From contig JADLBZ010000265.1 in the NCBI GenBank assembly GCA_020847415.1, positions 1-41,200 on the forward strand: 41,200 bases of DNA, in the 5' to 3' direction. Of this stretch, positions 3,416 through 40,497 are shown piece after piece. Each line of letters opens with the position of its first letter. Positions within the stretch are counted from its first letter, which is position 1. The position numbers and the translations under genes were made by a program. This DNA is from Planctomycetota bacterium (GTDB lineage: Bacteria > Planctomycetota > UBA8742 > UBA2392). The notes under the pieces are model-generated. The model saw only the letters and a list, made by a program, of their open reading frames with translations. It was not told the DNA's origin and searched no databases.

Positions 3416-4690
3416 CTAGAGGTACTTCGCCTTCTGCCTCAAAAGACTCAACACCTTGCCGGTCTTCAGTTCTTCCCGCATGCCGGAAAGACGGCCGGTC
3501 TGGTTCAGCTCGGTGTTGACTTCTTCGGCAGAGCGGCCGATGGAAGCCGCGATGCGACCCACCTCGCGCTGCAGCTCTTCCTCGGTGATCACGATGCGCT
3601 CGGCCTTGGCAATGGCGTCAACGACGAACGCGCGCTTGAGCATGTTCTTGACGTCGTCCACGCCCTTGTCCTTGTTCTCCTGCAGGAAGGTGCGGATGTC
3701 GTCTTCGGGCATGCCTGAGCGGTACATGCGATAGGCCTGCTGCTGCACCAGCTCGGCGGCCTTACGGCGGCTGAACTTCTCGGGCAGGTCCATGGTCGTG
3801 GATTCAGTGACCTTGAGGATCGCCTTCTCCTCAACGAAGCGGTCGATGTCGTTGTCCTTCTGCGCCTTCACGGCAGCGCGCACTTCGTCTTCCCAGGTCT
3901 TGCGGTCGGCGTGGCCCTTCTTGGCGGCAACTTCGTCCAGCGTGGGGCCTTTGAACTCGAGCACGTCGTTGACGATGATCTCGATGTTGACTTCTTTGCC
4001 GCGCAGGTCCTCACGACCGAAGTTGGCGGGCAGGTTGGCCTTGATTTCCTTCTTGTCGCCGCCCTTCAGGCCCACCAGTTGCGTCTCTGCGTCGCCGGGC
4101 TTCAACCCCGCGATCCATCCGTAGCCCACCTCCAGCAGGCCGCCGCCCTGCTGGAAGATGACCTCTTCGCCGGCCTTGACCAGCACCGAGGCGCGAACCA
4201 GGTCGCCCTTCTGCGAGGGGCGGTCCTGCTGGTTCAGCTCGCCCTCGCCCATCTGCTGGGTGCGCATCTGGGCGTACACCTCGTGCTCTTCCACGTCTGC
4301 AGCGGGGCGCTCTATTTCGAGCCCCTTGTACGTGGGCACGGTGAACTCGGGGAATACCTCGGCTTCCAGGGTCAGCACCACCGGGCCCGCTGCCGCCAGC
4401 TCAGGGTTGCCGACCAGCTCGGGCTGGCCCAGCAGTTTCAACGAGTGCTGGTCCACGGCGCTGCGCAGGGCGTCATCCGCCAGCGTCTGGCGCACATCGT
4501 TGACGACCTCACGCCCGAATCGCTTCTCCAGCAGGTGGCGCGGCGCCTTGCCTTTGCGATAGCCGGGGAAGCTCACCTGGCGGTTCAGGTCGCGGTAGCC
4601 CTCGTTCAGCTTGGTCGCGACGGTGTCGGCGGGGATTTCGGCGCGGATGATGCGCTTGCATCCCCCGGCGTTCTCGACGGTAATCTGCAT
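3416..4690 (-). CDS. tig: Trigger factor, ribosome-associated chaperone
   Basis: A 424-residue protein with the three-part trigger factor layout. The N-terminal ribosome-binding domain has the signature loop GYRKGKAPR (43-51; GFRKGKAP in most homologues). An FKBP-type PPIase domain spans about 150-245, and a helical SurA-like C-terminal domain runs from about 245 to 424. It binds at the ribosome exit tunnel and shields nascent chains. The start at 4690 ([10 protein letters not shown]) fits the family N-terminus and has AGGA upstream; the longer frame to 4795 has no likeness. It is the first gene of the tig-clpP-clpX operon and is divergent from the FHA kinase gene. Confidence 0.96.
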
Positions 4691-4827
4691 AGAGCGATGT
4701 CCTGACAGTTCGGAAGTCCCGGGCAGCCCAGCGAGGCGCCCGCGGCTGAAAGGCCCGGCCGGCCGCGGGGCGGGGATACTAGCAACTTCGCACACTGCCT
4801 CAAGCGGGGCAGCCTTCGGTACCCCGT

Positions 4828-4856
4828 TTGATTCTTTTTGGCTTTGCTGCTAAGGT
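4828..4856 (+). promoter_or_regulatory. Candidate sigma-70-type promoter of the FHA kinase gene
   Basis: TTGATT (4828-4833), a 17-nt spacer and TAAGGT (4851-4856) lie 54 nt before the kinase start codon, in an unusually T-rich stretch of the divergent tig/kinase gap. The spacing is ideal; the -10 match is only partial. Confidence 0.4.
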
Positions 4857-4909
4857 TTTGCGCAGACCGAAAACCCCATGGCGGGGCCGGGAAGGTATTT
4901 GGAGCAGGA

Positions 4910-6157
4910 ATGGCGCGCGCGCGGATCCGCATCGTGGATGGCGTGGATGCAGGCCTCGAGAAGGAACTTCCCGAGGAGGGCCAGGTTGTCGTTGGACGCC
5001 GCAGCACCTGTGACCTGGTGCTGCGGGTGGACTCCGTCTCGCGCGAGCATTGCCGCGTCGCGCGCCAGGACGGCGCCTACTGGATCTATGACAACGGCAG
5101 CAGCAACGGCACCCTCCTGAACGGCCTGCGCATCGAGAAGGCCAAGCTGGTGCACGGCGACGTGATCACGCTGGACCGCGTGACGCTGGAGTACCTGGAA
5201 GAATCCGACAGCGCCCAGACGCGCGAGATGATCCGCGAATTTGTGGTGCAGAAGCGCCCCGAGGGCGACGGAACCTACACCGCCGAGAACAGCCTGATCG
5301 GCAAGACGCTCAAGCACTACAAAGTGCTCAGCGTGATTGGCGAAGGCGGCATGGCGCTGGTCTACAAGGCCCGCGACGAGCGCAACGGCAGCATTGTGGC
5401 CTTGAAGGTTCTCAAGCGCGGCGAGACCGTGGACCAGGAGAACCTGCAGCGCTTCCTGAAGGAGTTCAAGACCGGCAGCAAGCTGAACCACCCCAACATC
5501 ATGCAGGTCTACGAGATCGGCGAGGTGGACGGGACGTACTTCATCGCCATGGAGTACATTAACGGCAGCAGCCTGCAGGAGATCCTGGACGAGAAGGGCC
5601 GCCTTTCCGCAGAAGGCACCCTCAAGATCGGCATCCAGGTGGCCAAGGCCCTCGAATTCGCCTTCAGCCAGCGCATCATCCACCGCGACATCAAGCCCGA
5701 GAACATCCTGATCAGCCGCGAGGGCGAGGTGAAGATCACCGACCTGGGGCTGGCCAAAGAACTGAAGAAGTACGTCAGCATCAACATCACCAAGACGGGC
5801 GAGGGCATTGGCACCCTGCACTACATGAGCCCCGAGCAGGTGGAAAACACCCGCGACGTGGACCAGCGCGCCGACATCTACAGCCTGGGCGCCACGCTGT
5901 ACGAGTGCCTCTGCGGCCAGCCGCCCTTTGATGAAGTGGGCGTCTGGAAATTTGTGGAAGCCATCAATGAGAAGCCGCCGCCGGACCTGAACGAGCGCGT
6001 GCCGAACCTGCATGCCGAAATCTGGCCCATGGTGAAGAAGGCCCTGGCCAAGCGCCCGGAGGAGCGGCAGCAGTCGCCCACGGAGTTCCGGCAGGAGCTG
6101 GAGCGACTGTTGGCGCTGGTGCAGGCGGAACGCCAGAAGAAGATCTCGGCTAACTAG
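4910..6157 (+). CDS. Ser/Thr protein kinase with N-terminal FHA domain
   Basis: A 415-residue cytoplasmic kinase with no membrane segment. Residues about 5-100 are an FHA phosphothreonine-binding domain with its signature residues: GR (29-30), SREH (44-47) and NGSSNGT (62-68). The kinase domain spans about 135-400: Gly-rich loop GEGGMA (144-149), Lys166 in ALKVL, catalytic loop HRDIKPEN (258-265), DLG in place of DFG (278-280), and MSPEQ (306-310) in place of APE. Catalytic residues are intact, so activity is expected. The ATG at 4910 is chosen because GGAG precedes it; a TTG at 4838 would add 24 residues before the FHA domain. FHA-first kinases often bind their own or a partner's phosphorylated threonines. 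A GC-rich hairpin follows the stop. Confidence 0.93.
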   Translation: MARARIRIVDGVDAGLEKELPEEGQVVVGRRSTCDLVLRVDSVSREHCRVARQDGAYWIYDNGSSNGTLLNGLRIEKAKLVHGDVITLDRVTLEYLEESDSAQTREMIREFVVQKRPEGDGTYTAENSLIGKTLKHYKVLSVIGEGGMALVYKARDERNGSIVALKVLKRGETVDQENLQRFLKEFKTGSKLNHPNIMQVYEIGEVDGTYFIAMEYINGSSLQEILDEKGRLSAEGTLKIGIQVAKALEFAFSQRIIHRDIKPENILISREGEVKITDLGLAKELKKYVSINITKTGEGIGTLHYMSPEQVENTRDVDQRADIYSLGATLYECLCGQPPFDEVGVWKFVEAINEKPPPDLNERVPNLHAEIWPMVKKALAKRPEERQQSPTEFRQELERLLALVQAERQKKISAN

Positions 6158-6213: not shown

Positions 6214-6888
6214 GTGCCCAGGTCGGATACCAAGAAGCGCGACGCTGTCCGCACCAAGGCCGCGATTCTGAACGCGGCTATTGCCGAGTTCGCCGCGCGC
6301 GGCCCCGCCGGCACTCGCGTGGACGAAGTGGCGGCCCGGGCCGGCGTCAACAAGAGCCTCATCTACCAGTACTTCGGCAGCAAGCAGGAGCTGTACGCCG
6401 AGGCCCTGAACTCGGTGCTGCAGGCAGTTACCGAGCGCTCGATGCGGCACAGTCACGAGTTCGCCCAGGTCACGGCGGCCCAGGGCGACGTGAAGAAGAC
6501 CTTGCGCAGCCTGCTGGAAGCCCAGCTCTCGTTGCTGGAGGCGGTGCCGGAGTACCCGCGCCTTCTGGCCTGGGAGAACCTGGAAGGCGGCGACACCCTG
6601 GGGCGGCTGCCGCTGCAGCAGACCTACGAGAGCTTCCTGAAGCGCCTGCAGGAGATGGCTCACCCGCTGATGGCGCGGGGGGTGCTCTCTTCATCACTGG
6701 ACCTGCGGCTCGTGGCGCGGTCAATCATTGCGCTGTTGCACTACTTCCTCATCTACAAGGGCGTGCAGCGCTTCCTGTTTCATGTGGACCCGACACAGCC
6801 GGCCTCGCGCGGCTTGTGGCTGGACCACTGCACGGAAATGCTGGCCAGCGCCCTTGCGTCGCGGGCGGCGGCGCACCCTGGGCCCTGA
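6214..6888 (+). CDS. TetR/AcrR-family transcriptional regulator
   Basis: A 224-residue regulator. The N-terminal TetR helix-turn-helix is clear, from AAILNAAIAEFA through VDEVAARAGVNKSLIYQYFG to SKQELYAEAL. The C-terminal ligand-binding part (about 75-224) is helical and not specific enough to name a ligand. The GTG at 6214 is chosen because GGAG lies 6 nt before it; a GTG at 6202 has no ribosome binding site. It follows the FHA kinase on the same strand, 56 nt away, with a hairpin between, and converges on the serine hydrolase gene with 3 nt between the stops. The target genes cannot be told; no efflux pump, the common TetR neighbour, is present. Confidence 0.9.
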   Translation: MPRSDTKKRDAVRTKAAILNAAIAEFAARGPAGTRVDEVAARAGVNKSLIYQYFGSKQELYAEALNSVLQAVTERSMRHSHEFAQVTAAQGDVKKTLRSLLEAQLSLLEAVPEYPRLLAWENLEGGDTLGRLPLQQTYESFLKRLQEMAHPLMARGVLSSSLDLRLVARSIIALLHYFLIYKGVQRFLFHVDPTQPASRGLWLDHCTEMLASALASRAAAHPGP

Positions 6889-6891
6889 GCG

Positions 6892-8169
6892 CTATTCGCG
6901 CCGGCCTCGAAGCAGCAGCGACAGGAAGCGGCGGTCGTCAAAGGTGCCGGTGTCGTCGGCAAAGCGCACAACGGTCAGGCCCAGCGAGCGCGACACAATC
7001 AAGCGTTGCTTGCCCTTGCCGGCTGCGTACGCCAGGTCGCGGGGCTGCCAGTCCTCGACCTTGGGCGTTGCACGATCAGGTGCTGGCTCCTGCTCGGGCG
7101 AAGCTTGGCCGTCGGCAGCCTCGGCGCCGCCTGAGCCGAGCCACCAGGTCAGGCCGTAACTCGGGTTGCAGGCGCTGGGCTTGAAGCACTCGTCCATGAT
7201 CTCGGTCTTCAGCAGTTGCTTGTCGCCGTGCTTGCCCCCGAGGCGCACGAACTCGCCCAGCTTGGCCCATTGCTCGACGTGAATGAAGATGCCGTGCGGC
7301 ACAGCCGGGTTGCCCACGGCGTCCGTGGTCCAGATCAGCTCCATGCCGATCGGCTTGCCGACGCGGCGCATGAAGTACGAGTGGATGTTCTCGCCTTTGT
7401 CCTTGAGCTTGCGTTTCAGGAACTCGCCGAAGGCGAAGTACTGGGCGGGTCCGTACTCGAAGCGAGTGCCTGGCTCGCGCTTGCACTTCAGGTTGACGGC
7501 GTAGGCGTATTTGTCGCTGGTCTGGGGGCCCTGCAGCGCGTCTTGCTCCGGCGGCAGCCCTGCGCACAACGACAGCAGCATGCGCACGGTAATGCGGCTG
7601 CGGCGCGGATCGTCCTTCCACTCGGTCAGTGTGTTGCAGACCGACTCGTCCCAGGTGAACAGCCCGTCCTCTACGGCGCAGGCGGCCGCAATGCCCGCGA
7701 AGCTCTTGGTGCCGCTGGCCAGCTCGTGGGGAGTGAATCCGTCGTAGCCGTTATCGTTGGCCTGGAAGACGACCTTGCCCTCTTTCAGGACCAGCAACGC
7801 CTCGCCGCGGGTGGCTTTGTGGTAGTCGTGGGCCGCAACCAGATACAGCCCGCTGGCGGGGTCTTTTGCGGGTGTGCCGCGGCTGGGCGTTGCCGGTTGA
7901 AGCTCCGCGGCGGCCTTGGCCAGCGCATTGAGCTCGGCGTCGGCAAAGACGCCGTCGCCATCGGCATCGTGGGCGGCGGCAGTCTTGCGGTGGCGTTCGG
8001 GGATTTCGGCGGTCGTGAGCTTGCCGTCCCCGTCCTTGTCGAGCTGCTTCAGCAGGGCTTTGGCCTGGTCTGTGAGGGCAGGCGCTTCCGGTTGGGGAGC
8101 CTCCTGTGCCAGAGACACCACGGTGGTCAGCAACAGAATGGGGACGACCAACGCGCGTCGTGTGGACAT
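6892..8169 (-). CDS. Exported serine hydrolase (beta-lactamase/esterase fold) with two EF-hands
   Basis: A 425-residue protein with a signal peptide (about 1-21). Two canonical EF-hand loops lie at 44-55 (DKDGDGKLTTAE) and 68-79 (DADGDGVFADAE), with acidic residues at positions 1, 3, 5 and 12, so calcium binding is likely. The rest resembles class C beta-lactamase-like serine hydrolases: SxxK motif SGTK (152-155), giving nucleophile Ser152 and Lys155. The second motif, usually YxN, reads YGPA (239-242), and the late KTG-like strand is replaced by GKGKQRLIVS. The start at 8169 has a perfect AGGAGG at 5 nt; the frame open to 8406 is rejected. Likely an esterase or peptidase outside the cytoplasm rather than a resistance enzyme; the substrate is unknown. 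Divergent from the CAP-domain gene. Confidence 0.82.
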   Translation of the reverse strand: MSTRRALVVPILLLTTVVSLAQEAPQPEAPALTDQAKALLKQLDKDGDGKLTTAEIPERHRKTAAAHDADGDGVFADAELNALAKAAAELQPATPSRGTPAKDPASGLYLVAAHDYHKATRGEALLVLKEGKVVFQANDNGYDGFTPHELASGTKSFAGIAAACAVEDGLFTWDESVCNTLTEWKDDPRRSRITVRMLLSLCAGLPPEQDALQGPQTSDKYAYAVNLKCKREPGTRFEYGPAQYFAFGEFLKRKLKDKGENIHSYFMRRVGKPIGMELIWTTDAVGNPAVPHGIFIHVEQWAKLGEFVRLGGKHGDKQLLKTEIMDECFKPSACNPSYGLTWWLGSGGAEAADGQASPEQEPAPDRATPKVEDWQPRDLAYAAGKGKQRLIVSRSLGLTVVRFADDTGTFDDRRFLSLLLRGRRE

Positions 8170-8336
8170 GGCTGCCTCCTGTGCTCGCTCACCTAACACC
8201 ATGCGCGCTGTGTTGTTGCGCAGAATCTGTTTTCCGGCGAACCGCGCGTGCAAGGCCCGTTTGTAGTGCATCGCACAAAAACGCTGGGCGGCTGCGCTGA
8301 GGTGCCGGGACACCAAGACGCGCATAGGGTGTGGCC

Positions 8337-9545
8337 ATGAAGCGTCTTGCGAGTGCATTCCCAGCCGTACTGTTCCTCTTTGCCGGTGCCACGGGCTTGT
8401 TTGCACAAAGCTCCGGCCCGACGCAGCCGACCAGCTCCGAGCAACTGGCGATTTACGAAATCAACCGCGCCCGCGCCAACCCGCAGAAGTACGACACCGA
8501 AAAGGGCCTGGGCGGCGCGCTGGCCGGCGTGGCGGCACAACAGCCGTTGGCGGTAAACCTGAATCTGACCAACTCGTCGCGCTTTCACTCGACCGAGTTT
8601 GGCACTTACGGCTACTTTGACCACCAGAGCGCCATCACAGGCACCTGGCCCAATAAGATGGCGCGCAACGCGGGCTACTCGCTGCCAAACCCGCCCTATG
8701 TGGACAACGACAACTTCATCGAGTCGATTGCGGCCGTGGGCTCCAGTGGTGGTGGAGCCAGCTACGCCCCTGCCGATGCAATTCGCGCGCTGATTCTGGA
8801 TGCGGGCGTGTCGACCTTGGGCCACCGCATTCACCTGCTGGCCATGAATAGCAGCAGCCAGGCCTTCCGCGAGGTGGGCACCGGCTACGCCACCGGCAAG
8901 CGTTGGGATTTGGCGGCGGCCTACCCCAGCCCGGCACCCAACCCGCCGGCCGGCAGCGGAGCGTACTGGACCATCCACACCGGCGTGCGGGCTGCCAGCA
9001 AGCCGTTCTTGACCGGCATCGTCTACAACGACGCCAACAGCAACGGCCGCTTTGACCTGAACGAGGGCGTCTCGGGCGTCACGGTCTATGCCTGGCAGGG
9101 CTCAGGCGTGCCCCTCGCCACAACCACAAACAGCGGCGGCGGCTGGGCCATTGAGGTGCTGGCCGGTACGTGGGGCGTGACAGCCTATGGCGGCAGTTTC
9201 GGCGGGCCGAAGTACGCACAGGTCACGGTCAGCGCAAGCAACATTGCCGTGGACTTCCGCAGCAACAGCGACACGGTGGATGTCAACTTCGGCGGGCCCA
9301 GCGGCGGCACCGGCACCTGGGGTATCCTGCCCGGCAGCGCCACGCAGGACGGCAGCAGCAAGCCGGCTACGGCCTATGATCCGACCGGCAGCGGGGGCGG
9401 CGGCGGTGGTTCCGGCAGTACGGGTACCGGAGGCGGCGGCGGTGGCGGTTGCGCCTCAGGCGATGCGCCTTCGTGGGCGCTGCTGGCCCTGGCTGCCCTG
9501 GCGTTGCTGGTGATGTGGCGCCGCTCAGCGGCCCAGCGCTCGTAG
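8337..9545 (+). CDS. Secreted CAP-domain protein with SdrD_B-like module and MYXO-CTERM-like sorting tail
   Basis: A 402-residue exported protein. It has a signal peptide (about 1-24), a CAP/SCP domain at about 33-200 (RFHSTEF, FDHQS, and the conserved LGHRIHLL at 161-168), and an SdrD_B/Cna-B-like beta module at about 225-310 (GIVYNDANSNGRFDLNEG). A Gly/Ser/Thr linker follows at 350-371. The C-terminus is Cys372, a hydrophobic helix (about 379-394) and RR, the layout of MYXO-CTERM-type sorting signals, in which the protein is processed and anchored at the cell surface. The ATG at 8337 is preceded by AGGG; a GTG two codons upstream is possible. The last 21 nt overlap the 3' end of the sixA-like gene on the other strand. 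Catalytic function of the CAP domain is unknown. Confidence 0.85.
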   Translation: MKRLASAFPAVLFLFAGATGLFAQSSGPTQPTSSEQLAIYEINRARANPQKYDTEKGLGGALAGVAAQQPLAVNLNLTNSSRFHSTEFGTYGYFDHQSAITGTWPNKMARNAGYSLPNPPYVDNDNFIESIAAVGSSGGGASYAPADAIRALILDAGVSTLGHRIHLLAMNSSSQAFREVGTGYATGKRWDLAAAYPSPAPNPPAGSGAYWTIHTGVRAASKPFLTGIVYNDANSNGRFDLNEGVSGVTVYAWQGSGVPLATTTNSGGGWAIEVLAGTWGVTAYGGSFGGPKYAQVTVSASNIAVDFRSNSDTVDVNFGGPSGGTGTWGILPGSATQDGSSKPATAYDPTGSGGGGGGSGSTGTGGGGGGGCASGDAPSWALLALAALALLVMWRRSAAQRS

Positions 9546-10031
9546 CACGGCCGGTCGCAGCAGGGCCAGCAGGGTAGCCTGCGGCTGGGGCTGCCATTGC
9601 ACGTCCAGCACGCACAGGCCGGCCTTCTTGAGTTCCAGGGCGACCCCGCCCGGTTGCCCGCATGCCAGGTGGGCCACGAGCCGCGACAAGTCCGGCTCGT
9701 GGCCCACGATCATGACCGGCTGTTCGCCGTGCTCGGCAAGCGCATCCAGCAGCGCCTGCACCGGTCTGCCCGGCTGCAGGGCCTCGCAGTTCTTCAGCGC
9801 ACGCGGGGGCAGTCTAAGGCCGCTTTGTGCCAGCAGGGCGGTCTGGTGTGCCCGAAGCAGCGGGCTGGTCAAAATGACGGCGGGCAGCGGCTTGCAGGCG
9901 GCGCGAATGCCGCGCACGGCTGCGGCTGCGCGGCTGCGGCCGGCCCTGGAAAGCGGGCGCAAGGAGTCGTCCGGCCAGCGCTTGGCGTCGCGCTCGCCCG
10001 CGGGCCCGTGGCGAAAGACATAGAGCCGCAT
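9525..10031 (-). CDS. SixA-type phosphohistidine phosphatase (histidine phosphatase superfamily)
   Basis: A 168-residue protein of the phosphoglycerate-mutase-like histidine phosphatase superfamily. The N-terminal RHG motif (MRLYVFRHGPA, His8 the expected phospho-acceptor), the SPLLRAHQTA segment and the second histidine in VGHEPDLSRL are all present. Length and motifs fit SixA, which removes phosphate from HPt or phosphocarrier histidines, though small phosphatases of this kind vary in substrate. The start at 10031 fits the family exactly. It lies 13 nt after ppx/gppA on the same strand, so the two are probably co-transcribed, a pairing seen in other genomes. The 3' end overlaps the CAP gene tail-to-tail by 21 nt. 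Confidence 0.85.
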   Translation of the reverse strand: MRLYVFRHGPAGERDAKRWPDDSLRPLSRAGRSRAAAAVRGIRAACKPLPAVILTSPLLRAHQTALLAQSGLRLPPRALKNCEALQPGRPVQALLDALAEHGEQPVMIVGHEPDLSRLVAHLACGQPGGVALELKKAGLCVLDVQWQPQPQATLLALLRPAVLRALGR

Positions 10032-17620: not shown

Positions 17621-19429
17621 TCAGGCCGGGTGGCGGCGCTGCTCGAAGCAGTAGCCGCTCTGGCCCCGCGCCTTGGTCTCGCCTTTGACCCTCTTCTTCA
17701 GCGACGCGGCGATCTGCGCCAGCAGCGCGGGGTGCGGCTTCTGGTCCAGCCGGTCGTTGCCGATCACGGCAAGGCTGAGGGTGGTGAGGGGCACACGGGT
17801 GGACTTGCCGGCGCGATCCGTGGCGGCAAACCACCGCTGGTCGCGGTCGAGTGCATTGAACAAATCGAGCTTCTTCTCGTCGAATTCGCGGCAGATGCGG
17901 GCCAGGGCCTCCGGAGAAACGGCCGCCCGGGCCACCACCACGAAGTCGTCGCCGCCCACATGGCCCAGGCGCGCCTCCGCCGCCAGGCCCCGCAGGTTCT
18001 CTTCCAGGACACGGGACGCCAGGCGGATCATGTCGTCACCCAGCACAAACCCGTAGGTGTCGTTGTATTCCTTGAAGTGGTCCAGATCGGCATACACCAC
18101 GGTGTACTCGGGAAGCTCCAGGGTCTCCTTGAGCCACTTCTGGATGGTGCGGTTGCCCGGCAAGTTGGTGAGCGGGTTGGAGTCGTGGGCGACCTGAAGT
18201 TCGAGTTCGACGCTGCGCGACAGCAGTTGCTTCAGGGTCACCGTGCCCAGAAAGGCCCCGTCCGTGTCCACCACCAGGATGGGATCGTAAAGATCCTGCC
18301 GCACACGGTCCATGGCCAGGCGCGCCAGCGTGATGACCGGCATGTCGCTCTGCACGACCAGCACCGAGCGTTTGCTGACCAGGTCCGCCGGTTTGCGCTC
18401 GAACAGCGCGTAGCCGTAACGCCAGCCGGTTACCTGGAACAGGTGGTCGCGGGTCATCAGGCCGTGCGGCTTGTCGCCCTTCAGGAACACAACGTGATCC
18501 AGCGAAGGGTTGCGCCGGAACACGCGTACCAGTTCTTCAGTCGTGGTGCCGCCCACCGGCAGGGTCTCGCACCGGATCATGAGCCGCCGCACGCTCTCGT
18601 CGAGGTTGCTGGACGCCTCGCCGTACCTTTGGGCAAGCTGCCCCAGCCGGCGACGGAACCCGAATTCAATCTCCGTGGGCGTCTCTTCGGGCCGGCCCAG
18701 CAGGAACCCCTGGCCATAGCGCACGCCCAGCCGCACCAGCATCTCCAGCTCGTCCCAGCTCTCGATCCCCTCGGCAACCAGAAGCGCGCCGACGCTGGCC
18801 GCAAGCGACGACAGCGACCGCACCACCGCCTGCTTGTAAGGGTGCTGGTGCACGTTGCGGGTCACGCCCATGTCGAGCTTCAGGTAGTGCGGGCGGCTGG
18901 AGATGAGCGTCATCAGGCCGCTGTGCCCGGAGCCGAAATCGTCCAGGGCGATGTTGAAGCCGTGGTTTGTGTACTGGCGGAGAGCTTCCTCAAACAGCTC
19001 GTAGTCGGTGATGGAGTGTTTCTCGGTCAGCTCGATCACGATGTTGCTGAGCTGGATGCCGAAGTCGGCCAGAGCACGCGGGCTGAAGGTCTCAGCAAAG
19101 CGGGCATCGCCCAGCATGGCGGGGCTGACGTTCAGGAAGTAGCGCTCGTTGCGCAGTGGCTCCGGCAGCGTCGAAATGCGCCGCAGCGCAGCCAGGCGAC
19201 AGGCCCGTTCCAGCTCCCACACGATGCCCAGGCGCTGGGCGCGCTGCAGCAGGATGTCGTAGCCCTCGCCTGTCCCGGCGCGCCGGGAAAGCACCTCGTA
19301 GCCAACCGTCGAGCCGGTGAACACGTTCACGATGGGCTGAAATACGGGCCGGACGTCCTTGTCACTGATGTGCTTGACCAGTTCCGTGATGCGGTTCTGG
19401 CCCGTGTGAGGCTCTTGGTCGGTCTGCAT
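17621..19429 (-). CDS. EAL-CBS-GGDEF protein, probable c-di-GMP phosphodiesterase with degenerate cyclase domain
   Basis: A 602-residue cytoplasmic protein. The EAL domain (about 20-255) keeps the catalytic set: EVL for EAL (Glu45), NVSP, ELTE (Glu133), DDFGSG (Asp163-Asp164), KLD (Lys184), AEGIES (Glu220) and YGQGFLLGRP (Gln240). A CBS pair (about 285-405) follows. The C-terminal GGDEF domain (about 412-575) opens with NPLTNLPGN, but its signature reads GGDDF (492-496) and the RxxD inhibitory site is absent. So phosphodiesterase activity is expected and cyclase activity is doubtful. CBS domains often bind adenine nucleotides and may gate the enzyme. The start at 19429 has GGGAG at 6 nt; the longer frame to 19522 is rejected. 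The EEP gene follows. Confidence 0.9.
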   Translation of the reverse strand: MQTDQEPHTGQNRITELVKHISDKDVRPVFQPIVNVFTGSTVGYEVLSRRAGTGEGYDILLQRAQRLGIVWELERACRLAALRRISTLPEPLRNERYFLNVSPAMLGDARFAETFSPRALADFGIQLSNIVIELTEKHSITDYELFEEALRQYTNHGFNIALDDFGSGHSGLMTLISSRPHYLKLDMGVTRNVHQHPYKQAVVRSLSSLAASVGALLVAEGIESWDELEMLVRLGVRYGQGFLLGRPEETPTEIEFGFRRRLGQLAQRYGEASSNLDESVRRLMIRCETLPVGGTTTEELVRVFRRNPSLDHVVFLKGDKPHGLMTRDHLFQVTGWRYGYALFERKPADLVSKRSVLVVQSDMPVITLARLAMDRVRQDLYDPILVVDTDGAFLGTVTLKQLLSRSVELELQVAHDSNPLTNLPGNRTIQKWLKETLELPEYTVVYADLDHFKEYNDTYGFVLGDDMIRLASRVLEENLRGLAAEARLGHVGGDDFVVVARAAVSPEALARICREFDEKKLDLFNALDRDQRWFAATDRAGKSTRVPLTTLSLAVIGNDRLDQKPHPALLAQIAASLKKRVKGETKARGQSGYCFEQRRHPA

Positions 19430-19561
19430 GGGCGGCTCCCGCAAAGTACCCTGCAAGCTACGACCTGCCCGGCAAGGATCCGTGTTGAGCAATTGAAGGT
19501 CTGAACAGGAACTTGCGTGCATCCCGCGCGTGCTGCCCGTTCTTTCCGGAACGCAAACCAG

Positions 19562-27743: not shown

Positions 27744-28004
27744 TTAGGCCGTCTTGGCAGCCTGGCGCTTCAGGCGCGCCTTCAGGCGCGAGGCCTGCCG
27801 CGTCTTGATCAGGCCGGTCTTGGCCGCCTTGTCCAGGCGCGATTCCACCCCGCTGAGCTGCTTCTGCACCTCAGGGGTCTTGCCGGCCAGCGCGGTGCGC
27901 AGGCCCTTGATGGCGGCGCGCAGCGACGAGCGCTGGGCGCGGTTGCGTTCGTTGCGGCTGCGGTTTTGACGGATGCGCTTGCGGGCGGAGTCGCTGTGTG
28001 CCAT
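27744..28004 (-). CDS. rpsT: 30S ribosomal protein S20
   Basis: An 86-residue basic helical protein that binds 16S rRNA. The N-terminus MAHSDSARKRIRQN and the pattern NERNRAQRSSLRAAIKG, then GLIKTRQASRLKARL, are those of bacterial S20. GAGG lies 5 nt before the ATG at 28004; a longer frame to 28085 is rejected. It precedes a lipoprotein gene with a 2-nt gap, an unusual partner; S20 is often a single-gene unit. It follows the TPR kinase gene, whose stop is 94 nt upstream on the same strand. Confidence 0.95.
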   Translation of the reverse strand: MAHSDSARKRIRQNRSRNERNRAQRSSLRAAIKGLRTALAGKTPEVQKQLSGVESRLDKAAKTGLIKTRQASRLKARLKRQAAKTA

Positions 28005-28097: not shown

Positions 28098-29492
28098 TCA
28101 GCCGGAGACCGTCACGTTGTAGCCCGCCTCCAGGTTGTCCGGATCCAGCAGTCGGGCCGTGTGCAGGCAGCGCCGGGCCTCTTCATCTTTGCCCAGGGCG
28201 TGAAGCGCCACCCCCAGGTTGTTGTGCGCACCGGCATAGCGCGGGCGCAGGGCAATGGCCTTGCGATATGCCTCCACGGCGTCCTTGGGCTTGTCCAGGG
28301 CAAACAGCACGCACCCAAGCTGGTTGTGGGCCTCCGCCGAGCGCGGGCGCAGGGCAACCGCCTTGCGGCTGGCCTCCAGGGCGTCGCGGGCTTCGCCGGA
28401 CCGTAACAGGGCCAGCGAAAGCGCATGCCAGGCCTCGGCGTGGGAAGGTGCTTCTTTCAGCACTTTCTTGAACAGCCGTGCCGCCGCCGGAAAGCTGCCC
28501 TTGGCGTAGAGCGCCATGGCTGGGGCCAGTTCCGGCGCGGCTGCCACGGCAGCCAGGCTGGGGTGGGGGGCCAGGGTGCGCTCCGGCAGGGGCTCGCGTG
28601 CCGTGGCGGGGCTGTCGGCCAGCAGCCGGTCGAGATCCTTGGCACTGGCCGGGATCGCCGCCGGTGCCGCAGTGGTCTCCGCAGGCTGGACCGCGGGGTC
28701 AAGGGCCGCAAGCAGTTCAGCCGCCGACTGGAAACGGCGTTCCGCGCGGGCAAAACAGCGCAGGAAGAACGGGTCCACCCAGGCCGGCAGGCCGGCGGCA
28801 AAGTCGCTGGGCCGGTCCCCCGGCTGGGGGGGCTCGCCGGCCAGCATCTCAAAGAAGACCAGCCCCAGGCTGTAAAGGTCGCTGCGTGTGTCCGGCTGGG
28901 CGCCTTGGCGCTGCTCGGGTGCCATATAGAGGAGAGTTCCGGCCAGGCGGGCGGCCGACTCGTTGCTGGTGTCGGCGCTGAGTTGCAGGCTCTCCTGCCA
29001 GTCCAAGCGGCGGCAGAGGTTGAAGTCCGTCAATTTGGTCACGCCGTCCACGGAGACCAGCACGTTCTCAGGCTTGATGTCGCCGTGGACCACGCCCGCT
29101 CCGTGGGCAATCTGCAGCGCCAGGGCAATGGCGCGGGTGTGGCTGACTGCCTCGGGCAGGGGCAGGCGGCCGCGGCTGAGCATTACTTCGCGCAGGGATT
29201 GGCCTTCCACGTATTCGAGCAGCAGATAGGGCGGGTTGCTGCGGATATTCAGGCCCAGTACCTTCACGAGGTGCGGGCTTTCCAGGGCGGCAAGATCGGC
29301 CTGCACGACGCCCTCCGCGTGCAGCTGCTTCAGGAAGGCTGGGTCCGTGGGCACCTTCACGGCGGCCAGCCGGTTCTTCCATATGTGGTGACGGCCCAGC
29401 CACACCTCGCCGAAGCCGCCCCGGCCCAGGGGGCGTTCCAGGACGTACTCTCCCAGCAGGTTTCCGCGCTGCAAAGCGGTTTCGTCAGACAT
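28098..29492 (-). CDS. Ser/Thr kinase-like protein with C-terminal TPR repeats and altered catalytic motifs
   Basis: A 464-residue cytoplasmic protein. The kinase domain spans about 15-270: Gly-rich loop GRGGFGEVW (23-31), Lys46 in AAVKV, catalytic loop VHGDIKPENVL (135-145) with HGD for HRD, DFN for DFG (156-158), and YMAPEQ (189-194). The catalytic aspartates and lysine remain, so activity is possible but not certain. A Pro/Ala-rich linker (about 270-325) leads to TPR repeats (about 330-455), which usually bind partner proteins. The ATG has GAGG at 8 nt and overlaps the end of the CheX-like gene by 8 nt, so the two are translationally coupled. The pair stands apart from any chemotaxis operon. 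rpsT follows. Confidence 0.9.
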   Translation of the reverse strand: MSDETALQRGNLLGEYVLERPLGRGGFGEVWLGRHHIWKNRLAAVKVPTDPAFLKQLHAEGVVQADLAALESPHLVKVLGLNIRSNPPYLLLEYVEGQSLREVMLSRGRLPLPEAVSHTRAIALALQIAHGAGVVHGDIKPENVLVSVDGVTKLTDFNLCRRLDWQESLQLSADTSNESAARLAGTLLYMAPEQRQGAQPDTRSDLYSLGLVFFEMLAGEPPQPGDRPSDFAAGLPAWVDPFFLRCFARAERRFQSAAELLAALDPAVQPAETTAAPAAIPASAKDLDRLLADSPATAREPLPERTLAPHPSLAAVAAAPELAPAMALYAKGSFPAAARLFKKVLKEAPSHAEAWHALSLALLRSGEARDALEASRKAVALRPRSAEAHNQLGCVLFALDKPKDAVEAYRKAIALRPRYAGAHNNLGVALHALGKDEEARRCLHTARLLDPDNLEAGYNVTVSG

Positions 29493-29967
29493 GGGCCGGC
29501 ACCTCAGCGCCCAGACTCAGAAAGAGGGAAAACGGGCCCAGTTCGCCCTCGAAGGGCTGTTCAAACTGCACCCGGTTGCCCGGCGCCACGACGCGCAGGC
29601 CCGCCCCCGCAAGAATGCGCGGGAACCGGAACACGACCGCCGGGTCGGCCCGGTTGATGTGGGCGACAGCCAGGCCGGCCACCATGTTGGCAATCTCGCA
29701 AACACAGTCGCTGAGCAGGCTGGTGGTCAGTTCCGGTGCAGCGCCTTGCAGTAGGCGGCTGGCCAGCGCACCCGCCTGCGCGGAGGTGAAGGACAAAGCC
29801 AGAAAGGCGGTGCCGGCGCCCTGCAGCTCAACCAAGGCGGTGAAGTCGGCAGCGGGCAACGGCCCTTGGCGTCGGCGGGCGCGGCTCCGAATGACGGGGG
29901 TGCGCAACTGGGTTGCGAAGGTCTCTTGGGCAGAGCGGACGAAGTGGCGTAGGTTGCGCAGTCGCAC
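29485..29967 (-). CDS. CheX-like (CheC/CheX/FliY phosphatase fold) protein
   Basis: A 160-residue protein. The motif CEIANMVAGLA (90-100), with Glu91 and Asn94, matches the E-xx-N phosphatase signature of CheX/CheC proteins, which dephosphorylate CheY. Only one such motif is present, as in CheX. The N-terminal 35 residues are basic and atypical. The start is a GTG at 29967 without a clear ribosome binding site, so it is uncertain; no better start is seen. Its 3' end overlaps the TPR kinase gene by 8 nt. No receiver domain or chemoreceptor is nearby. A role in removing phosphate from a receiver partner under the control of the kinase is an inference from coupling alone. Confidence 0.68.
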   Translation of the reverse strand: MRLRNLRHFVRSAQETFATQLRTPVIRSRARRRQGPLPAADFTALVELQGAGTAFLALSFTSAQAGALASRLLQGAAPELTTSLLSDCVCEIANMVAGLAVAHINRADPAVVFRFPRILAGAGLRVVAPGNRVQFEQPFEGELGPFSLFLSLGAEVPAHV

Positions 29968-38269: not shown

Positions 38270-38430
38270 GCGATTCTCCGGGGTAAGTCCGGGGCCCCCA
38301 GCATGGTAGATCAGCGCAAGTGGCTTGCAATGCGTGCGGCGTGCGGCTTTCGCTGTGAGGCGGGCGGGGGTAGATTGGAGCCGGCGGGTGACAGTTGCGC
38401 AATGGAACGGCCAAAGGGCCGTCCGTTGTC

Positions 38431-40497
38431 ATGTCGGACTCCGCCGCCCCGGAGCCCGCCGTGTCGCCCGAGTCGGAAACCGTACCAGCAGGCACACCCA
38501 GCTCCGGTTCCAGCCAGGTGCCCGAGTTGCGGCCGGACACCAGCGAGGCGGGGCAGTCGGCCCCGGCCCTGCACCCACTGGAAGCAAACTCGACGCCCAA
38601 GCTGGCCCCGGTGCCGTCCGAGTCCGGCGATTCAGGCGACTCGACCCTGCTGCATCCCGACGACACTTCGCGCAGTGAGACCGGCACCAACGGATACACC
38701 GGCGGCACGTCGCAGGGAACCGCATATCCCGGCCAGGCACCGAATGTGCGCGCGCCCGGCTGGGATGCCTCCGGCAGCCGCACGGCGGGCGAGGTGGCGG
38801 CGCGGGACTCCGCGCGCCACCGGCCCCAGAGCGCTCCTGAGTTGCAGCCGGCATCGGTGCCGAGCCTGGCTTCGCTGCCCATGCAGAAGCCGCGACCTGC
38901 CGGCGCCGATCAGCCGGAAGTGCACGTGATCGCCGAGGTCGAGGCGACAGGCGTCGAAGTGGCCCTGCCCGAACCCGCGCCGGCACTGTCGTCCAAGCCG
39001 CCCGGCCACGGCCAGACGCGCGCCATCCGCTCGGAGTTTGCGGCTGTGGACGAAGCCGCCCGCGAACTGGCCCGGGCCGCCCTGGCAGCCGAAATCGAGA
39101 AGGAAGACCAGAAGGCCCTGAAGGGCTACAAGCCCGACGAGGGCGAGGTGCCGCCTTCGCCGGAGGTGGCCAAGCGCTTTGACGTCATCCTGCAACTGGG
39201 CAAGGGCGGCATGGGCGTGGTTTATCTCTGCCGCGACCCCCGTCGCAGCGGCAAGGTGGTGGCGGTCAAGGACATCCGTTCCGAGATCAAGCCGGGCATG
39301 AAGGTCGAGCAACGCGTCGAACACGAGGCCAACCTGCTGATGCAGCTTGACCACCCCGGCATCGTGAAGGTGTACGACTTCCTCAAGTTCCCGCGCGGCT
39401 CGGCCATCGTCATGGAGTTCATTGACGGTCTGCCCCTGGACCACGAGATTGGCGCCGGCCGCCGGGTGACTTGGGACTTCGGCGTGCGCGTGCTGCGCGA
39501 CATCGGCAAAGCCCTGAACTACGCCCACCAGCAGGGCGTCATCCACCGTGACCTGAAGCCCGACAACATCCTGTATTCCGAGCGCCACAACGTGATGAAG
39601 CTGGTGGACTTCGGCCTGGCCCGCATCTTTGACGAGCAGCAGGACGTGCACCTGACCCGGACCGGCATGGTGGTGGGCACGCCCCACTACATGAGCCCCG
39701 AGCAGGTCTCCGGCAAGGCGCTGGACCAGCGCAGCGACGTGTACAGCTTCGGCGCCACCCTCTACTACCTGCTTACCGGCCAGCGCCACGTTGAGGGCAC
39801 CAACGTGATGGAGATCCTGGAACAGCAGCGCAGCAAGCCCATCCTGCCGCCCAGCCACCTGGTGCGCGATGTGCCCTCGTGGCTGTCCTACATCATCGGC
39901 AAGATGATGGAGATCAGCCCCGACGACCGCTACCCGACCATGGGCGAGGTGCTCGCGGACCTTGACCGCGCCCAGGACGACCCTGAGGGCTTCCTGGCTG
40001 CCCAGCCGCGCGGCACGGTGAAGCGCTATGCGGGCCAGCCCCTCGCGGCCTACGCCACCGAGCCTGCGGGCGAAGAGGTCTACGACCTTACGCCCGAGCC
40101 CGAGGAGGGCCTGCCTTCGAACCAGGCGGAATCGCTGGGCGACCCAGCCACGCGGCGCCACACGCGGCAGAAACGCACCACGCGGCGCACCACGGCATCG
40201 GCGCAGCAATCGGCACAGGCAGAAGGCTCGCCGCCGGTGCCCGACGCGGCCTCGGACCAGACGGCCAAGCTGCCCCCGGACCCCGAACAGCCTGTGCCCG
40301 CCGCCGACGTGGCACAGATCTCGGCACTGCTGAAGGAAATCAGCGGGCGGCTGGAGCGCGCTGAACAGCGACTGGTGAGCCCCGGCATGCAGGTGGTGGT
40401 GGTGATGCTGAGCGTGCTGGCGGTGGCGCTTCTGCTGGTGGGTGGGCTGCTGTGGGCCGACCGCGAGGGGCTGCTGGCCAGTCTGCTGGGCCGGTAG
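38431..40497 (+). CDS. Membrane-anchored Ser/Thr protein kinase with long disordered N-terminus
   Basis: A 688-residue kinase. Residues 1-235 are Pro/Ser/Glu-rich and probably disordered. The kinase domain spans about 248-515: GKGGMGVVY Gly-rich loop, Lys280 in VAVKDI, HRDLKPDN catalytic loop (372-379, Asp374), DFGLAR (393-398) and MSPEQ, all intact. A Pro/Glu and Arg-rich linker (about 530-620) and a coiled-coil-like stretch (ISALLKEISGRLERAEQRL) lead to a single membrane helix (about 653-676) and a short basic end. Tail-anchored with the kinase in the cytoplasm. The ATG at 38431 is the first with a reasonable context (MSDSAAPEP), but no strong ribosome binding site is seen; a TTG at 38395 is possible. 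Divergent from the parvulin pair. Confidence 0.88.
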   Translation: MSDSAAPEPAVSPESETVPAGTPSSGSSQVPELRPDTSEAGQSAPALHPLEANSTPKLAPVPSESGDSGDSTLLHPDDTSRSETGTNGYTGGTSQGTAYPGQAPNVRAPGWDASGSRTAGEVAARDSARHRPQSAPELQPASVPSLASLPMQKPRPAGADQPEVHVIAEVEATGVEVALPEPAPALSSKPPGHGQTRAIRSEFAAVDEAARELARAALAAEIEKEDQKALKGYKPDEGEVPPSPEVAKRFDVILQLGKGGMGVVYLCRDPRRSGKVVAVKDIRSEIKPGMKVEQRVEHEANLLMQLDHPGIVKVYDFLKFPRGSAIVMEFIDGLPLDHEIGAGRRVTWDFGVRVLRDIGKALNYAHQQGVIHRDLKPDNILYSERHNVMKLVDFGLARIFDEQQDVHLTRTGMVVGTPHYMSPEQVSGKALDQRSDVYSFGATLYYLLTGQRHVEGTNVMEILEQQRSKPILPPSHLVRDVPSWLSYIIGKMMEISPDDRYPTMGEVLADLDRAQDDPEGFLAAQPRGTVKRYAGQPLAAYATEPAGEEVYDLTPEPEEGLPSNQAESLGDPATRRHTRQKRTTRRTTASAQQSAQAEGSPPVPDAASDQTAKLPPDPEQPVPAADVAQISALLKEISGRLERAEQRLVSPGMQVVVVMLSVLAVALLLVGGLLWADREGLLASLLGR

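Follow-up and report, generated by a model that had tools for sequence, protein, structure and literature searches.

Two overlapping genes in a 41,200-nucleotide stretch of DNA from an uncultured planctomycete (hereafter the window) pair a putative divergent member of the CheX phosphatase family with a Hanks-type Ser/Thr kinase that carries C-terminal TPRs. Both genes are real, and their pairing, met in one genome and in none of the relatives examined, is a lineage-specific oddity, not a conserved signalling system. We favour, with a probability of roughly 0.55, a lineage-specific two-gene operon, in which the first gene would encode a divergent phosphatase of response regulators and the second a cytosolic kinase with catalytic activity.

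The gene pair and its products

The CheX gene (29485..29967, minus strand) has a GTG start and encodes a stand-alone protein of 160 residues, apparently of the family that dephosphorylates response regulators; the kinase gene occupies 28098..29492 on the same strand. The 8 nt that the two were originally predicted to share are indeed there, the CheX stop and the kinase start overlapping at 29485..29492 on the minus strand (ATGTCTGA), and a Shine-Dalgarno-like GAGGTG was seen on inspection immediately 5' of the kinase ATG. GC content by codon position is coding-like in both genes (0.73/0.52/0.80 and 0.75/0.48/0.83). Co-transcription as a two-gene operon is probable, the overlap being our sole basis for proposing it. 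An ORF lying 93 nt downstream of the kinase on the minus strand (27744..28004, beginning MAHSDSARKRIRQNRSRNERNRAQRSSL...) is one that we take, by recognition, to be rpsT, encoding ribosomal protein S20; we do not count it in the CheX-kinase module.

The original prediction had recognised a CheX-like phosphatase from its E-xx-N motif and had staked that identity on a profile search, and the search found the family: the protein matches PF13690 in Pfam with 45.5 bits (E=8e-12), above the curated cut-off of 27 bits, and Glu91 and Asn94 align with the ExxN columns of other CheX domains. Across the domains compared, the Glu is present in 117/117 and the Asn in 113/117; CheX requires this motif for placing the attacking water (PMC3510030). 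The window protein forms a long branch among these domains, is 21-28% identical to its aligned relatives, and has a Val in place of the conserved Lys that follows GxA in 103/117 of them. A search of 392 genomes of the phylum gave best matches of 28-29% identity and no CheX relative above 29%, and a pattern scan of 85,000 genomes revealed no close relatives. As a single sequence, the protein matches solved CheX structures weakly (3hm4, E=0.016) and its AlphaFold model reaches a pLDDT of 40, too low to be of use; a homologous profile (A3), in which it is one of 14 rows, matches both 3hm4 and 1xko. Sequence comparison supports placing it in the CheX family as a divergent member. With CheX of T. 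maritima and B. burgdorferi it shares the predicted fold family, by profile, and the Glu and Asn of ExxN; unlike them, it lacks the conserved Lys and a nearby receiver gene, and is paired with a Ser/Thr kinase.

The second gene also answers to its original description as a kinase fold with HGD for HRD and DFN for DFG, followed by TPRs. Pfam identifies a Pkinase domain (E=2.4e-34) and at least four TPR stretches; the kinase domain spans about residues 13-265, a low-confidence linker about 273-309, and four to five TPRs about 320-460. The predicted kinase fold is confident: an AF2 model built from 20 sequences has a mean pLDDT of 82, low in the linker (273-309) and the activation-loop region (160-176), and matches PknB in Foldseek with E 5.7e-15. 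Aligned with its relatives, the protein carries HGD as H136-G137-D138 and DFN as D156-F157-N158; the HRD Arg and the DFG Gly are the only departures from consensus, and the catalytic residues K46, E60, D138, K140, N143 and D156 are all kept. The 'KDD' criterion has been used to mark functional planctomycete STKs (PMC11032199), and since the window kinase conforms to this rule it can be counted as functional. To judge from its sequence, it is probably catalytically active, perhaps as a slow enzyme.

When the altered motifs were followed through the relatives, as had been suggested, HGD recurred and DFN did not, so that the two were rejected as joint family traits. Several relatives carry another residue at the HRD Arg, in 5/88 a Gly. 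At the third position of DFG, 83/88 keep the Gly, and DFN is absent from every one of the 88 compared. With Asn in the window kinase and Ser in its nearest relative, a change at this third position may be common to the order, as far as two genomes can indicate. The kinase sits, by alignment, in a distinct Planctomycetota subfamily; its nearest relatives belong to three families of the class other than its own and keep both the N-lobe signature and the C-terminal TPR array, and further relatives were found in planctomycete MAGs. Indeed, the Planctomycetota STK-TPR kinases taken for comparison (L035/L064, L036/L065 and L037/L067) have in common with it the signature GEYVLxxxIGxGGFGEVWxARHHxW, a similar TPR layout and 42-48% identity over the kinase domain, but they carry HRD/DFG (HRD/DFS in the nearest) and have no CheX neighbour. 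In the nearest relative, the kinase gene (L035) adjoins a gene that we take, by eye, to be inositol-monophosphatase-like.

Distribution and genomic context

The CheX-kinase pairing is not conserved across related genomes. Around the kinase's nearest relatives, a CheX HMM run over 79 loci with up to 6 kb of flank found no CheX; many of these loci are cut by contig ends, such that a CheX lying beyond the contig would be missed. A receiver is present in two of the 79. The same HMM recovers both the window's own gene and a distant paralogue (L032), and is therefore sensitive enough for ordinary CheX. Seen from the CheX side, of 98 planctomycete loci (within L208-L307, most of them flanked by about 4 kb to the left and right) 66 hold a receiver no farther than 1 kb away, CheX-REC fusions included, and two hold a Hanks kinase at that distance, a number that we estimate to be near chance level from a rough kinase density, not from a computed background. 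These loci were drawn from a scored list regardless of their neighbours, save that the first batch added L212 and L213 for their nearby kinase; the kinase count is thus, if anything, inflated.

Closer to home, a further 15 genomes from the family of the window genome contain no match to the window CheX, 13 of them have no CheX in a PF13690 search, and the window kinase itself is likewise absent from the 15, where the best kinase matches are far weaker (E about 1e-31 to 1e-36) than in the sister family (1e-88). Searches of the open-licence literature gave no CheX-STK link among the titles and abstracts listed.

The original remark was that no chemotaxis gene is near. A receiver HMM detects no receiver domain in the 41 kb of the window, but two canonical copies of CheX (71-77 bits) lie on other contigs of the genome, as do six CheW domains and 43 receivers. 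From these we conclude that a His-Asp network exists for the window CheX to act on. We also considered contamination as the source of the contig in this MAG and dismissed it, as HemB and an alpha-2-macroglobulin-like protein match the same family; the contig's HemB is 71-77% identical to that of most members of the genome's family.

CheX-kinase linkage in other planctomycetes

One of the two kinase-associated CheX loci, L294, contains a single frame of 561 residues (3923-5605, minus strand; G175:C920) with Response_reg, Pkinase and CheX domains, all above cut-off. Its kinase part is degenerate, with HRDLNPQN and GFG; matches to the REC-kinase part are frequent among the seven genomes of its family, and L294 alone gives one to the CheX part. 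At L212 (G082:C233), a kinase gene (7941-9593) stands directly upstream of a CheX-REC fusion gene (6868-7812), both on the minus strand. In each locus CheX is physically linked with a Hanks kinase, as in the window, but the kinase and CheX subtypes are others, a receiver is part of both arrangements, and the L294 kinase is degenerate. These cases show that the two domain types have been joined by evolution elsewhere, with a functional joining in the window still unproven; the fusion is the main independent hint of a CheX-kinase link, which we regard as possible but unproven. If CheX and the kinase do act together, they would tie Ser/Thr kinases directly to the phosphatases of receiver domains. 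At present the window pair is mainly a catalogue entry, and the REC-kinase-CheX fusion is the better lead.

What the pair might do

Under the operon reading, we infer that the small, divergent CheX has most likely kept the ability to hydrolyse phospho-aspartate, its target being a receiver domain whose gene lies elsewhere in the genome, with Glu91 and Asn94 positioning the water. The second gene would yield a soluble Hanks-type Ser/Thr kinase, probably active, which would recruit partners or substrates through its TPR array. Co-translation would keep the supply of the two proteins matched, and both may belong to one pathway; perhaps the kinase controls CheX, or the response regulator on which CheX acts. 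This reading is strengthened by the PF13690 score and the ExxN pair, by the intact KDD residues, by a kinase-TPR architecture kept in three other families of the class, by the overlap with its Shine-Dalgarno-like sequence, by the contig's place in the genome's family, and by the 43 receivers available as substrates. It is weakened by a pairing seen in one genome only, so that adjacency could be chance, by a long-branch CheX without its Lys and without the neighbouring receiver gene of most CheX loci, and by a DFN that no compared relative shares.

Could the two instead form a dedicated module, in which CheX is partner or substrate of the kinase, and the kinase gates response-regulator dephosphorylation so as to link Ser/Thr and His-Asp signalling? 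The overlap would fit such a module, as would the absence of both genes from the other 15 family members, the L294 fusion with its three Pfam domains, and the STK gene beside CheX-REC in a third lineage (L212). The conserved neighbourhood on which the original prediction had staked a joint module did not materialise, however: with CheX in 0/79 kinase loci, a Hanks kinase in just 2/98 CheX loci at roughly the estimated chance level, and a fusion kinase that is degenerate and of another subfamily, we hold a dedicated module to be possible but doubtful. We think it unlikely that CheX has been converted into a switch under the control of the kinase. Its binding or phosphorylation by the kinase would then set the lifetime of a response regulator and so gate directly between Ser/Thr and His-Asp phosphorylation, and the REC-STK-CheX fusion would be an independent parallel solution.

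A rearrangement may, on the other hand, have set a divergent CheX and a kinase side by side to work independently, which the unconserved pairing and the abundance of Hanks kinases (three in the 41 kb window) would allow; an 8-nt overlap is more than mere adjacency, however, and both genes are jointly missing from the rest of the family, making simple chance improbable in our view. We give very little credence to the originally suggested pseudokinase scaffold, with CheX as its regulated enzyme: DFN, and DFS in the nearest relative, speak for it, but the active site keeps its Lys, Glu, Asn and both Asp, and with them everything needed for ATP, Mg and phosphotransfer; HGD is seen in relatives too; and the pseudokinase examples taken from PMC7586955 and PMC12599244 have mostly lost residues of this kind.

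Elsewhere in the window, the two additional Hanks kinases lie at 4838-6154 and 38395-40494, both on the plus strand, one of them with an N-terminal FHA domain, and the minus strand carries a second-messenger (c-di-GMP) gene at 17624-19522, encoding an EAL-CBS-GGDEF protein.
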